Source: a virus
Length of the DNA stretch: 24,706 nt
IMG/VR virus record: IMGVR_UViG_3300017593_000611
Location: 1-24,706 of that record
Reading direction: 5' to 3' (one strand)
Part shown: in pieces, positions 7,377 through 24,706 of the stretch
Layout: every line of letters starts with the position of its first letter
Numbering within the stretch: position 1 is the first letter of the stretch
The notes under the pieces: model-generated
Seen by the model: the letters and a program-made list of their open reading frames with translations, nothing else
Told to the model about the DNA's origin: nothing
Database searches by the model: none
Position numbers and translations under genes: made by a program

Positions 7377-7403
7377 TAGACACGCAAGCTTTTTTGGGTT
7401 TAT

Positions 7404-7442
7404 AATGGCCCGGTTCCGGTTAATCTGGGCCGGGCCATTTTT
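7404..7442 (+). terminator. Rho-independent terminator after the capsid gene
   Basis: A perfect 10-bp stem, AATGGCCCGG (7404-7413) with CCGGGCCATT (7430-7439), has a 16-base loop and is followed by a T run (7438-7442). It lies between the capsid gene and the next gene and is the clearest terminator in the window. Confidence 0.88.
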
Positions 7443-7458
7443 ATAAAAAGGAGAAGAG

Positions 7459-7968
7459 ATGAAAAAGTTAGAAGATTTTACAGTTTCGGTTAATTTGCAT
7501 GGTTGGCAAACAAAAGTAGATGGGAAACTAAAGGTCTATCCTCGCGCGTTTAAAGCCAAAGGAATTCAAATTAATGACGCCATGGTTGAATGCCTTGTAG
7601 AAGGCTATCAATTTAGCGGACGTAGCGGAAAGAAATTGCCTGTATTAAGTCTTGTTGGTGGAACTCAACAGGAATTGCAAGAAGCCTTTAATGCCCTTAC
7701 AAAAATAGAACGTGTCGAAAAAATTCGTGAATTGGCTCGTAAGGAAGTTATGGAAACGCTTGGGCCTGATGAAAAGAAGCTGGTTCTAAAGGGAATGAAC
7801 GAACAAGCTGAAGAACAAGCTGAAGAACAAGCTGAAGAGCAAGCTGAAGAGCAAGCTGAAGAGCAAGCTGAAGAGCAAGCTGAAGAGCAAGCCAAGAAAA
7901 TTAAGAAAGCTGAGAAAGCTGAGAAAAAAGCTAAGAAGAAAAAGTTGAAAAAAGAATCTGGTGAATAG
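7459..7968 (+). CDS. Unknown protein with EQAE tandem repeat and Lys-rich tail
   Basis: This 169-residue protein is not recognised. Residues 1-110 look globular, with a beta-rich start (FTVSVNLHGWQTKV) and a helical region around residues 70-100. Residues 115-145 are seven-plus perfect repeats of EQAE, which would form a highly acidic single helix. A Lys/Ala tail (KKIKKAEKAEKKAKKKKLKK) follows and gives an abrupt charge switch. The ATG is preceded by AAAAGGAGAAGAG. It is the first gene after the capsid terminator. It could be a small virion or assembly protein, but nothing in the sequence fixes a function. Confidence 0.82.
   Translation: MKKLEDFTVSVNLHGWQTKVDGKLKVYPRAFKAKGIQINDAMVECLVEGYQFSGRSGKKLPVLSLVGGTQQELQEAFNALTKIERVEKIRELARKEVMETLGPDEKKLVLKGMNEQAEEQAEEQAEEQAEEQAEEQAEEQAEEQAKKIKKAEKAEKKAKKKKLKKESGE
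7801..7893 (+). repeat. 12-bp tandem repeat (EQAE)
   Basis: Seven full copies and one partial copy of GAACAAGCTGAA (later copies GAGCAAGCTGAA) lie in frame inside the gene starting at 7459. The first three copies use GAA and the rest GAG at the same codon, so the array probably grew by slippage in at least two steps. Confidence 0.95.
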
Positions 7969-19389: not shown

Positions 19390-19485
19390 GAGTCGATGGT
19401 TCAGAGGGGCTAATGAATGGTCCTTGGGGCCCAATGTATTAGCGCTTTGGGACGCTAATGATTAACCCCTCTGAGCTATCGACTT
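19390..19485 (+). ncRNA. Structured RNA element with long stem and alternative internal pairings
   Basis: The arms 19391-19414 and 19461-19484 form a 24-bp stem with two G-U pairs (19398/19477 and 19400/19475) and one C-A mismatch (19410/19465). A wobble at 19390/19485 extends it. Inside are GGTCC/GGGCC (19419-19431) and ATTAGCG/CGCTAAT (19438-19459). ATTAGC could instead pair with GCTAAT at 19409-19414. It lies between two virion genes, just upstream of the GGGAG ribosome binding site (19494-19498) of the second. Two tiny ORFs, MVQRG and MNGPWGPMY, overlap inside it by TAATG. The structure is seen. Any regulatory role is inferred. Confidence 0.72.
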
Positions 19486-19503
19486 GTGAGAATGGGAGAC
19501 GTA

Positions 19504-20745
19504 ATGGAAGGTGATGGAAAAAACAGAGAAACAGGACAGAAACTGTTCTACGATACTCTCATTGACACTACTATGTCATACCCATGCACTAGACCAAAAA
19601 TACTTAAGATGAATGAGCGTTTTGCTCCAGAAGTGACAAGTGGTTGGATTCATGGAAAGTTTGCCAAGAGTAAGTGGCAGGTGACTAATTACACAACCAA
19701 TGAAATGTATGATAATTTGAGTTTTCCTATTCCAGAAGACTTTGCGAGTTGGAAAAATTACAATATTCCAAATGATGGTTCCTTTTTTGATGAAGAAATC
19801 GATCTTCGTGTCTATGATATTGTAGATGAATCAATCCCCATATTCTCTAGGGCATGGGGTTACAACACAATGTTTATGGCCATGAAGGGGAGAGGTCGTT
19901 ATAAGATTAAACCAGCAACTATGCACTATGGTAAAGGTTATCAGCAACTACTTTTCGATATGTGGACTAGAGCTTATGGTGGATTGGGTGGATTTTCTGC
20001 TGCTAACTTCAGTGAACAGAGTAAACACCGAGGATTGTTTTGGACTGCTTCAAATTATAGAAATATTTACAGTATGCCAAAAGTTGATGACTCTGAAACA
20101 GTCAGAGGGCCTTTTTCTCATGCTCACGGGATCGCAGATAGGCATGATTATAGCGTTGCTGGTGGACTAGAACAGACTACTGATAGCAATTACTACATAA
20201 ATAAAGTATATTTTGCATACGAAAGTTCCTATGGAAATCACTTTACGTTAGTAGGGTCTTCTCATGCCAATGTTAAGAGAATTCGTAGTACTGTTCTCAG
20301 TAACGACGGAGGCAAAGGCGTAGCTTTTTATTCATTGAGCAATACTGTCGATTCCAACAAAAAAGCAATCTTAGTTAAGCCTATGGGTATTGATATTGTG
20401 TGGCTGGATTGGTTTGATCCGATAGTCTACGATCTTGAAGTCGTTTATTTTTACACTAACAAACAACAAATTTATTTCAGAACAATCGATCCAAGTGAAT
20501 TTTGGCGTTCAAGTCCTAAAAATGGTGTAGGATTGTTTAAGAATGTTTTCATGAAAGGGATCCCAATGGTTGGTGCGAATTATAGAAGTTCAAGATATAA
20601 TGCGTTTCCTGATATCTACTTTAGATTGAGAAAAAAATCTAATGGTGGAGTTGGCAGGTTGTCGCGTTCAAAGGTTTCAATGCACTTTGGTTCAGATATC
20701 TACCCATGCAATTTTATGGTGAAGAACGGAACAAAAAGTGTATAA
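19504..20745 (+). CDS. Large virion protein, unassigned
   Basis: This 413-residue protein has no recognised family. It has many Tyr, Trp, Phe, Asn and Gly residues in alternating patterns, with sections such as WGYNTMFMAMKGRGRY and IDIVWLDWFDP, and a basic C-terminal part. There is no signal peptide or membrane segment. ATG 19504 is chosen because GGGAG lies five bases upstream. GTG 19486 and ATG 19492 are in frame but less well placed. The gene starts 18 bases after the structured element. Its stop codon TAA overlaps an ATG (20743-20747) that begins the short-ORF repeat chain. Location in the fibre block suggests a virion component. Confidence 0.76.
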   Translation: MEGDGKNRETGQKLFYDTLIDTTMSYPCTRPKILKMNERFAPEVTSGWIHGKFAKSKWQVTNYTTNEMYDNLSFPIPEDFASWKNYNIPNDGSFFDEEIDLRVYDIVDESIPIFSRAWGYNTMFMAMKGRGRYKIKPATMHYGKGYQQLLFDMWTRAYGGLGGFSAANFSEQSKHRGLFWTASNYRNIYSMPKVDDSETVRGPFSHAHGIADRHDYSVAGGLEQTTDSNYYINKVYFAYESSYGNHFTLVGSSHANVKRIRSTVLSNDGGKGVAFYSLSNTVDSNKKAILVKPMGIDIVWLDWFDPIVYDLEVVYFYTNKQQIYFRTIDPSEFWRSSPKNGVGLFKNVFMKGIPMVGANYRSSRYNAFPDIYFRLRKKSNGGVGRLSRSKVSMHFGSDIYPCNFMVKNGTKSV

Positions 20746-20746
20746 T
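20741..20746 (+). promoter_or_regulatory. Perfect -10 box overlapping the gene end
   Basis: TATAAT at 20741-20746 overlaps the stop codon of the preceding gene. A start of transcription about seven bases later would fall at the beginning of the repeat array. No good -35 box is seen at 16-18 bases, so the promoter is weakly supported. Confidence 0.35.
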
Positions 20747-20751
20747 GTTTA

Positions 20752-20847
20752 TAGGGAAGGCCTAAGTAATGTTCTTCCTGGTTAGGGGATGGCCCATGTA
20801 ATGTTCATCCTGGTCAGGGGAAGGCCTATGTAATGTTCTTCCTGTTT
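20752..20847 (+). repeat. Three 32-bp tandem repeats with covarying hairpins
   Basis: Units run 20752-20783, 20784-20815 and 20816-20847. Each has a hairpin stem: GGAAG/CTTCC in units 1 and 3, GGATG/CATCC in unit 2, a compensatory change. Each unit also carries GTAATGTTC. Read from the ATGs at 20769 and 20801 the repeats encode MFFLVRGWPM and MFILVRGRPM, and each TAA overlaps the next ATG. A shortened copy lies at 20745-20768 and a third ATG at 20833 starts a longer short ORF. The repeats are seen directly. The meaning is open. Confidence 0.88.
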
Positions 20848-20848
20848 T

Positions 20849-20882
20849 GCCTCTCTCTGGTTCAATCCCAGAGAGGGGCTTT
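20849..20882 (+). terminator. GC-rich hairpin, terminator-like with a T-loop-like loop
   Basis: GCCTCTCTCTGG (20849-20860) pairs with CCAGAGAGGGGC (20868-20879) with one G-U pair, enclosing TTCAATC. The T run that follows is only TTT, so termination may be weak. The 12-bp stem with TTCAATC is also the shape of a tRNA acceptor/T-arm minihelix. GGCTTTCCC (20877-20885) can alternatively pair with GGGAAGGCC in repeats 1 and 3. Confidence 0.6.
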
Positions 20883-20929
20883 CCCATCTTTTAACTGATG
20901 GCGAAAGCCTTTCTTGGTAGGAGAATATC

Positions 20930-21016
20930 ATGGCCTTTGGAATGGACAACTATCAAACTAGTGGTTCTTACACAACATTTGTTGATTCAATTTTTTGTAA
21001 GAAGATTGACGTATAA
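20930..21016 (+). CDS. 28-residue micro-ORF upstream of the nuclease
   Basis: The ATG at 20930 has TAGGAG six bases upstream, the only strong ribosome binding site near the nuclease gene. The ORF (beginning MAFGMDNYQTSG, ending CKKIDV) stops at 21016, one base before the nuclease ATG at 21018. Such an arrangement fits a leader whose translation is coupled to the nuclease. No family or motif is recognised. The longer frame starting at 20898, which runs into the nuclease, lacks a ribosome binding site. Confidence 0.55.
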   Translation: MAFGMDNYQTSGSYTTFVDSIFCKKIDV

Positions 21017-21017
21017 A

Positions 21018-21374
21018 ATGTATCAGTACAATGCTATGGTAGTCAGAGTTGTGGATGGAGATACTCTTGACCTTATGGTTGATTTAGGATTTGATATTTT
21101 TCAAAAAATGCGTGTGCGATTATTTGGAATTGATACCCCCGAAATTTATGGTGTAAAACGTGATTCTGAAGAATATTCAAAAGGTAAATTGGCTTCTGAT
21201 TTTGTAAAGAAAATACTTCACCCCGGAACCAAAGTGTCTATGAATTCAGTTAAAGATAAAAGAGGTAAATACGGGAGGTATCTAGCTACAGTGTTTTGTG
21301 ATATGAATGGAGTGTTAACAAATTTAAATGATATGTTGGTCACAAATGGATTGGCTGTAAAGAAAGATTATTAG
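21018..21374 (+). CDS. Thermonuclease-like (SNase family) nuclease
   Basis: This 118-residue protein fits the staphylococcal nuclease fold, an OB-fold enzyme that cuts DNA or RNA with calcium. The sequence carries VVDGDTLDL (D13, D15, T16), RLFGIDTPE (R34, D39, T40, E42) and GKYGRYLA (R87), which correspond to the catalytic D21, R35, D40/T41, E43 and R87 of the reference enzyme. No signal peptide is seen in this start choice, although the in-frame ATG at 20898 would add 40 residues including a weakly hydrophobic stretch. I chose 21018 because it follows the micro-ORF by one base. Phages often carry such nucleases, and its place between virion genes is unusual. Confidence 0.85.
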   Translation: MYQYNAMVVRVVDGDTLDLMVDLGFDIFQKMRVRLFGIDTPEIYGVKRDSEEYSKGKLASDFVKKILHPGTKVSMNSVKDKRGKYGRYLATVFCDMNGVLTNLNDMLVTNGLAVKKDY

Positions 21375-24588: not shown

Positions 24589-24706
24589 CTGGGAGATACA
24601 GTTGTTACGCTGCTGTCCTGCGGGTTCCTCGTTCTGGATACGCTTTGTTTGATGATAACACATCGGACGTAGAAAGAATGGGATTATTGGTCAGGCGTTA
24701 TTGTTC
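24589..24706 (+). other. Right-end stretch without supported gene
   Basis: These 118 bases after the tail tube gene contain no terminator with a T run and no long ORF. An ATG at 24678 is open to the window end but has a weak ribosome binding site, so nothing is called. Confidence 0.5.

Follow-up and report, generated by a model that had tools for sequence, protein, structure and literature searches.

Results

Gene neighborhood. The window, i.e., the whole stretch of DNA that was analyzed, is IMG/VR virus record IMGVR_UViG_3300017593_000611, which has 24,706 bases and comes from an uncultured phage. Its genes include those for a terminase and a PF03864-type capsid protein, unassigned virion genes, a staphylococcal-nuclease-like gene, and a tail-tube-like gene. 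An open reading frame (ORF) of 419 aa on the plus strand (19486 to 20745; stop codon at 20743 to 20745) adjoins, on the 5' side, the repeat array described below; its product gave no match in Pfam, PHROG, or PDB, and its position marks it as a putative fiber or other virion gene. Downstream of the array, also on the plus strand, come a Shine-Dalgarno sequence, TAGGAG, located 6 to 7 nt 5' of the ATG of the next ORF (20918 to 20932 for the two together), that ORF itself, which starts with MAFG and has only 28 aa (20930 to 21016), and a 118-aa staphylococcal-nuclease-like gene (21018 to 21374; PF00565, 6.7e-13; PHROG 452, endonuclease) with an ATG of its own at 21018.

The search for related phages carrying the array, as called for in the original prediction, yielded one, IMGVR_UViG_3300033146_003904 (35,805 bases; loci L002, L007, and L008), in which pairing was kept, compensatory pairs were present, and TAATG was found in all the loops. 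The two phages have a common gene order; the 212-aa gene 3' of the nuclease is 95% identical between them and the 419-aa gene is 63% identical to its homologue, while TAGGAG with its ATG (in L002) and the start of the nuclease are shared. The 28-aa ORF is the remnant that an internal deletion, stopping just short of the nuclease start, has left in the window of a gene with 252 aa in the relative (MAFG..., L002, 6430 to 7188). The array and a folded gap upstream of the 419-aa gene lie inside a cassette of about 69% nucleotide identity, compared with 86% upstream and 92% downstream. Since it lies in this fast-diverging cassette and next to a deleted gene, the array might mark a recombination or cassette-exchange junction for host-range genes. 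It lies, however, inside the divergent stretch and not at its edges, its pairing is kept, there is no early promoter such as T4-type PeSL cassettes have, and neither contig holds further copies; we regard such a junction as improbable.

Elsewhere in the window, a hairpin with a T-run is located 3' of the capsid gene (7395 to 7447), is nearly identical in the relative, and looks like an ordinary terminator, and in-frame 12-bp repeats at 7804 to 7892 encode EEQA, the copy number of which is apparently different in the relative (L007, 6752 to 7231). At the end of a tail-assembly-chaperone-like gene of the relative (PHROG 313), GAGGGGGAAACGAACGG precedes a hairpin (L008, 7520 to 7580), an arrangement that resembles the programmed -1 frameshift of tail chaperones. 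Past the stop of the relative's tail-tube-like gene, no further stop interrupts the frame for about 95 codons, which include a repeated FENWSGVIVPWVESSSTPASFDG module (L008, 6524 to 6817); readthrough there is doubtful because the counterpart in the window (24589 to 24706) has TAA and a broken frame. The 484-aa gene of the relative contains a perfect palindrome, TATATTAGAAGC-TAATCCT-GCTTCTAATATA, within its coding sequence (L007, 17240 to 17272).

Hairpin repeats in the intercistronic gap. The gap 3' of the 419-aa gene, which separates two genes of the tail region, contains three direct repeats (20754 to 20849; TRF score, 147), and the 32-bp period that had been read from them held, with unit 1 at 20754 to 20785, unit 2 at 20786 to 20817, and unit 3 at 20818 to 20849, all on the plus strand. 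In each unit, bases 2 to 7 pair with bases 20 to 25, forming a 6-bp hairpin with TAATG in the loop; the paired segments are 20755 to 20760 with 20773 to 20778 in unit 1, 20787 to 20792 with 20805 to 20810 in unit 2, and 20819 to 20824 with 20837 to 20842 in unit 3. The stems read GGAAGG/TCTTCC in units 1 and 3 and GGATGG/TCATCC, with a compensatory A-U-to-U-A change, in unit 2. The predicted hairpins GGAAG/CTTCC and GGATG/CATCC are therefore present, plus a sixth pair, which is G-U. No other copy of the array was found in either contig, making it a single locus.

The array gap folds better than its shuffled versions both in the window (z = -3.3; 0/200 shuffles) and in the relative (z = -6.3; 0/200). 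The energy model preferred one nested rod, with unit 1 paired with unit 3 and unit 2 forming the tip (-25.3 and -34.5 kcal/mol), over three separate hairpins (-14.3 and -22.2 kcal/mol). Such a modeled rod would demand that units 1 and 3 match and would allow the self-complementary unit 2 to drift, a pattern that fits the one seen and would not discriminate the rod from three hairpins. An extra hairpin ahead of the start of the next gene (20880 to 20906, plus strand) does not have the same fold in the relative.

A hairpin with a T-loop next to the repeats. Directly 3' of unit 3, on the plus strand, lies a 12-bp hairpin with a canonical 7-nt T-loop (20849 to 20879; GCCTCTCTCTGG-TTCAATC-CCAGAGAGGGGC), which the original prediction did not contain, nor did it contain the rod at 19392 to 19483 or the next ORF at 20930 to 21016 with its own TAGGAG. 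The stem is perfect, and the geometry is that of a tRNA acceptor stem stacked on the T-arm: 12 bp, seven loop bases with U54-U55-C56-A57-A58, and a G-C end pair, without a D-arm, an anticodon arm, or CCA. The homologue in the relative (L002, 6352 to 6382; GTCCCTCTCTGG-TTCAATT-CCAGAGAGGGAC) differs by a compensatory C-G-to-U-A pair. Among the hairpins of 12 bp with a 7-nt loop in 287 kb, a comparison made post hoc, a T-loop (TTCRANY with a closing G-C pair) occurred only in this hairpin and its homologue and in none of the other 18 entries. It is a stronger element than the repeats.

ARAGORN found 0 tRNA genes with a full cloverleaf and anticodon, and the possibility of a full tRNA interrupted by a long insert was likewise rejected, as no tRNA was predicted. 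The search for Rfam families (riboswitches and small RNAs) gave 0 matches at the gathering score in 60.5 kb, and lax searches of the gaps returned nothing exceeding that score. The hairpin has the 12 bp from T-loop to cleavage site and the canonical T-loop that characterize RNase P substrates (PMC11143913); in place of the 3' RCCA, there is TTTCCC in the window and TGCTC in the relative. Judged from its sequence, the hairpin may work like an RNase P signal without having every feature of one, and we do not class it as such.

A stable 12-bp stem 3' of a virion gene could also be a weak intrinsic terminator or attenuator, the more so as the relative's hairpin, which is followed at a distance of a few bases by CTTTTT, was accepted in a lenient terminator scan and as this phage does have a clear terminator-like hairpin 3' of its capsid gene. 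The hairpin of the window nevertheless failed the same lenient scan, neither phage has a T-run directly 3' of the stem, and a terminator would leave unexplained the three upstream repeats and the other folded gap, which is without a T-run. Termination at this site is unlikely, although we rate it a little above the other alternatives considered here.

Conservation of pairing in the relative. At the corresponding position, the relative has three units of GGGAAGGCTCATCTAATGTCCTTCCGGGGTAT, of which the third deviates at the 3' end; its array aligns with that of the window with zero insertions or deletions. All 30 proposed pairs form in both phages (60/60 pair cells). Unit 2 and the T-loop hairpin each contain one pair with a double compensatory change, and four pairs switch between G-U (or U-G) and G-C (or C-G) from one phage to the other. 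When the partner was slid by one column, pairing fell from 100% to 67 to 72%. With the same number of changes placed at random and scored for pairing retention and as many double changes, P was about 0.02 for unit 2, 0.04 for unit 3 versus the relative, and 0.01 for the T-loop hairpin; these values are nominal and partly dependent. The selection on RNA pairing that the original prediction had favored is supported by this comparison with one relative: the 60 retained pair cells, the two double changes, and the drop on sliding all speak for it.

Exact-pattern scans of IMG/VR, run with the unit and with the T-loop hairpin, returned the relative only. The unit-junction pattern gave 15 single, non-tandem matches in GTDB genomes, not above the chance expectation, and blastn searches of phages and plasmids returned either nothing or chance matches. 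Protein searches with the 419-aa, 212-aa, and 484-aa genes led to the same contig, that of the relative, only. The conserved N terminus of the 484-aa protein matches Vibrio, Shewanella, and other phages; among the seven records searched by way of it, there was no homologue of the 419-aa gene, and at the corresponding gene boundaries of records with this N terminus, no comparably outlying folds were seen. As the array is known from two phages only in the collections searched, the covariation comprises few events.

Two further explanations bear on these changes. The repeats could be a neutral tandem duplication of a functionless hairpin: tandem duplication alone explains repeats, the units of the relative are nearly identical, and the sample is two phages. 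A neutral history has little to offer, however, for 100% retention of pairs while unpaired positions change, nor for the compensatory changes, and we think it quite unlikely. The palindromes, regularly spaced at 32 bp (three helical turns) in both phages, would also suit a dimeric protein that binds an array on double-stranded DNA. The compensatory change of unit 2 would yet hit both half-sites of such a protein together, there is no promoter-like site on the coding strand of the gap, and the site is not repeated in the neighboring T-loop hairpin. Moreover, wherever the named helices depart from Watson-Crick pairing, the pair on the coding strand is G-U, which suits RNA. A DNA-binding array has, in our estimate, a small chance of being the explanation.

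A second folded gap. The gap between the 484-aa and 419-aa genes (19392 to 19483, plus strand) contains a second structured intercistronic element of equal stability, in which an 18-bp closing stem surrounds inner hairpins (z = -6.5; 0/200 shuffles). The corresponding gap of the relative (L002, 4898 to 5000) is closed by a stem of about 20 bp that encloses two hairpins (z = -7.1). The sequences of the two are unrelated and align unconvincingly, yet their layout is identical. The array gap and this upstream gap are the 120-nt folds of lowest energy in each contig. The upstream gap has no T-run at all, and unlike the capsid gene hairpin, neither of these two folds resembles an ordinary terminator. 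Its duplex, at about 18 to 22 bp, differs in length from the array helices, which have only 6 to 7 bp and are joined by loops, a point relevant to RNase III, the sites of which are duplexes of roughly two helical turns.

Mini-ORFs across the repeats. The original prediction had described a chain of tiny TAATG-linked ORFs running from the stop of the virion gene into the nuclease and had proposed, in combination with RNA pairing, a termination-reinitiation relay. Part of the chain exists on the plus strand (20769 to 20898): MFFLVRGWPM (20769 to 20801), MFILVRGRPM (20801 to 20833), and the 21-codon MFFLFCLSLVQSQRGAFPSFN (20833 to 20898), with TAATG, TAATG, and TGATG as the links. The first step of the proposed chain does not hold, since MFIGKA (20745 to 20765) ends three bases short of the ATG at 20769 and is not linked by TAATG. 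TGATG at 20896 to 20900 indeed opens a frame into the nuclease, but the nuclease domain has its own ATG at 21018, and the frame is absent in the relative. A nuclease fusion read from this frame was rejected because the relative's nuclease begins at this internal Met, too, and has nothing that corresponds to the extension.

The ladder does not exceed chance. There are 35 overlapping chains of at least three ORFs on the plus strand of the window, and chains of at least four occur in 75% of its dinucleotide shuffles. With one TAATG per copy and a 32-nt period, overlap is automatic, and the ladder comes out stop-free in about 63% of cases; given these frequencies, it needs no selection of its own. 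Differences between the window and the relative fall at codon position 2 in 6/8, 5/9, and 3/6 cases in the three units, and the relative's peptide, MSFRGMGRLI, is unrelated to MFFLVRGWPM. The mini-ORFs show no sign of coding constraint in their sequence. TAATG loops and the 32-nt period are common to both phages by descent, and the mini-ORF ladder, which we judge incidental, looks like a chance by-product of the hairpin period.

In the relay, ribosomes leaving the virion stop would step through the TAATG mini-ORFs, melting the hairpins, toward the next gene. It accords with this that TAATG is found in 6/6 loops of both phages, that the 32-nt period preserves the overlap, that AAGG lies 8 nt 5' of each loop ATG except in unit 2, and that 1-nt and 4-nt overlaps are favored in prokaryotic coupling (PMC10666635). 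A relay between the virion gene and the nuclease is not conserved, however, because the relative has neither the entry TAATG (the virion stop context there is TAATA) nor the exit TGATG, and its third mini-ORF, with 53 codons, overruns the point where the next gene begins. That gene is provided with a Shine-Dalgarno sequence of its own, the differences fall mostly at codon position 2, the peptides are unrelated, and ladders of this length are common in shuffles. Reinitiation also falls steeply over tens of nucleotides (PMC10666635), and the last mini-ORF of the window ends 31 nt before the next real ATG. We consider the relay, the least probable of the alternatives, very unlikely; this part of the original prediction is not supported.

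Discussion

Selection on the structure of the sense-strand RNA is the most probable reading of the locus (probability, about 0.8). Because only two phages carry the element, we infer its function. The single mechanism that seems best to us, to which we give roughly an even chance judging from sequence, is that the structure delimits, cuts, or stabilizes virion mRNAs. The element would be a structured intercistronic RNA on the sense strand of the late (virion gene) transcript, in which the three palindromic units would fold as three hairpins or one nested rod, followed by a T-arm-like minihelix. It would delimit the mRNA of the upstream virion gene by resisting 3' exonucleases and/or marking a cut by a host endoribonuclease, the candidate enzymes being RNase III for the rods and, for the minihelix, RNase P or a T-arm enzyme. 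The virion mRNAs of one operon would thereby be separated and stabilized individually, and the next gene would be started de novo from its own Shine-Dalgarno sequence. Transcription through the element, its cleavage or protection, and the enzyme involved are presumed here.

Two observations count against this mechanism in part: the array helices, at 6 to 7 bp, are short for RNase III, and the minihelix does not have the 3' RCCA that helps RNase P. A third, that the downstream gene is nearly all deleted in the window while the array is intact, nonetheless fits a role for the upstream mRNA; that the array outlived the 252-aa gene suggests that it serves the upstream message.

More tentatively, and with a good deal of doubt, the element could act in the viral mRNA as a mimic of the acceptor/T-arm half of a tRNA, a signal bound or cut by a tRNA enzyme, which may be RNase P, a T-arm modifier, or EF-Tu, with the homogenized hairpin array as a partner domain. 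If true, this would be a compact mRNA-delimiting module, and to our knowledge, no module of this kind has been described in phage late operons. Except for a few model phages, little is known of how separate expression levels of virion genes are obtained from one long message, and a hairpin array plus a tRNA-like minihelix offers a compact, defined, and testable sequence. The case also illustrates how a hairpin period of 32 nt can, as a by-product, line up overlapping mini-ORFs in a striking ladder.

Phage T7 carries RNase III processing hairpins between its genes. The element resembles these in that folded spacers lie between the genes of a polycistronic phage transcript, but the array consists of tandem 6-bp units and not of one long duplex, the gap at 19392 to 19483 being a closer match. 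The promoter early stem-loop (PeSL) cassettes of T4-type phages, as far as they are described where they are cited (PMC4503421), are similar as stem-loops between phage genes in a variable region; by the same description, they differ from the element, which has no plus-strand promoter-like site in its gap, is a single locus, and lies among virion rather than early genes. The plastid intercistronic expression element is short, was shown experimentally, and was proposed to yield separate stable mRNAs (PMC2230500); the element analyzed here is from a phage and unrelated in sequence, and its role is only deduced. Its TAATG overlaps recall termination-reinitiation at overlapping genes (PMC10666635), from which it differs in that neither its mini-ORFs, as coding sequences, nor entry and exit are conserved.

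RNase P cleaves model hairpins made of acceptor stem, T-stem, and T-loop with 12 bp, and the phage RNAs that it cuts include M3 RNA, the C4 antisense RNA, and T4 gene 32 mRNA (PMC11143913). Unlike those substrates, the minihelix has no 3' RCCA and is preceded on its 5' side by a hairpin array, and its cleavage is only predicted; unlike a tRNA, it is not recognized as one by ARAGORN or Rfam. Like the model substrates, it has 12 bp from the loop to the 5' end and a 7-nt T-loop within a phage transcript region, and its G+1 is paired with a C at the far end.
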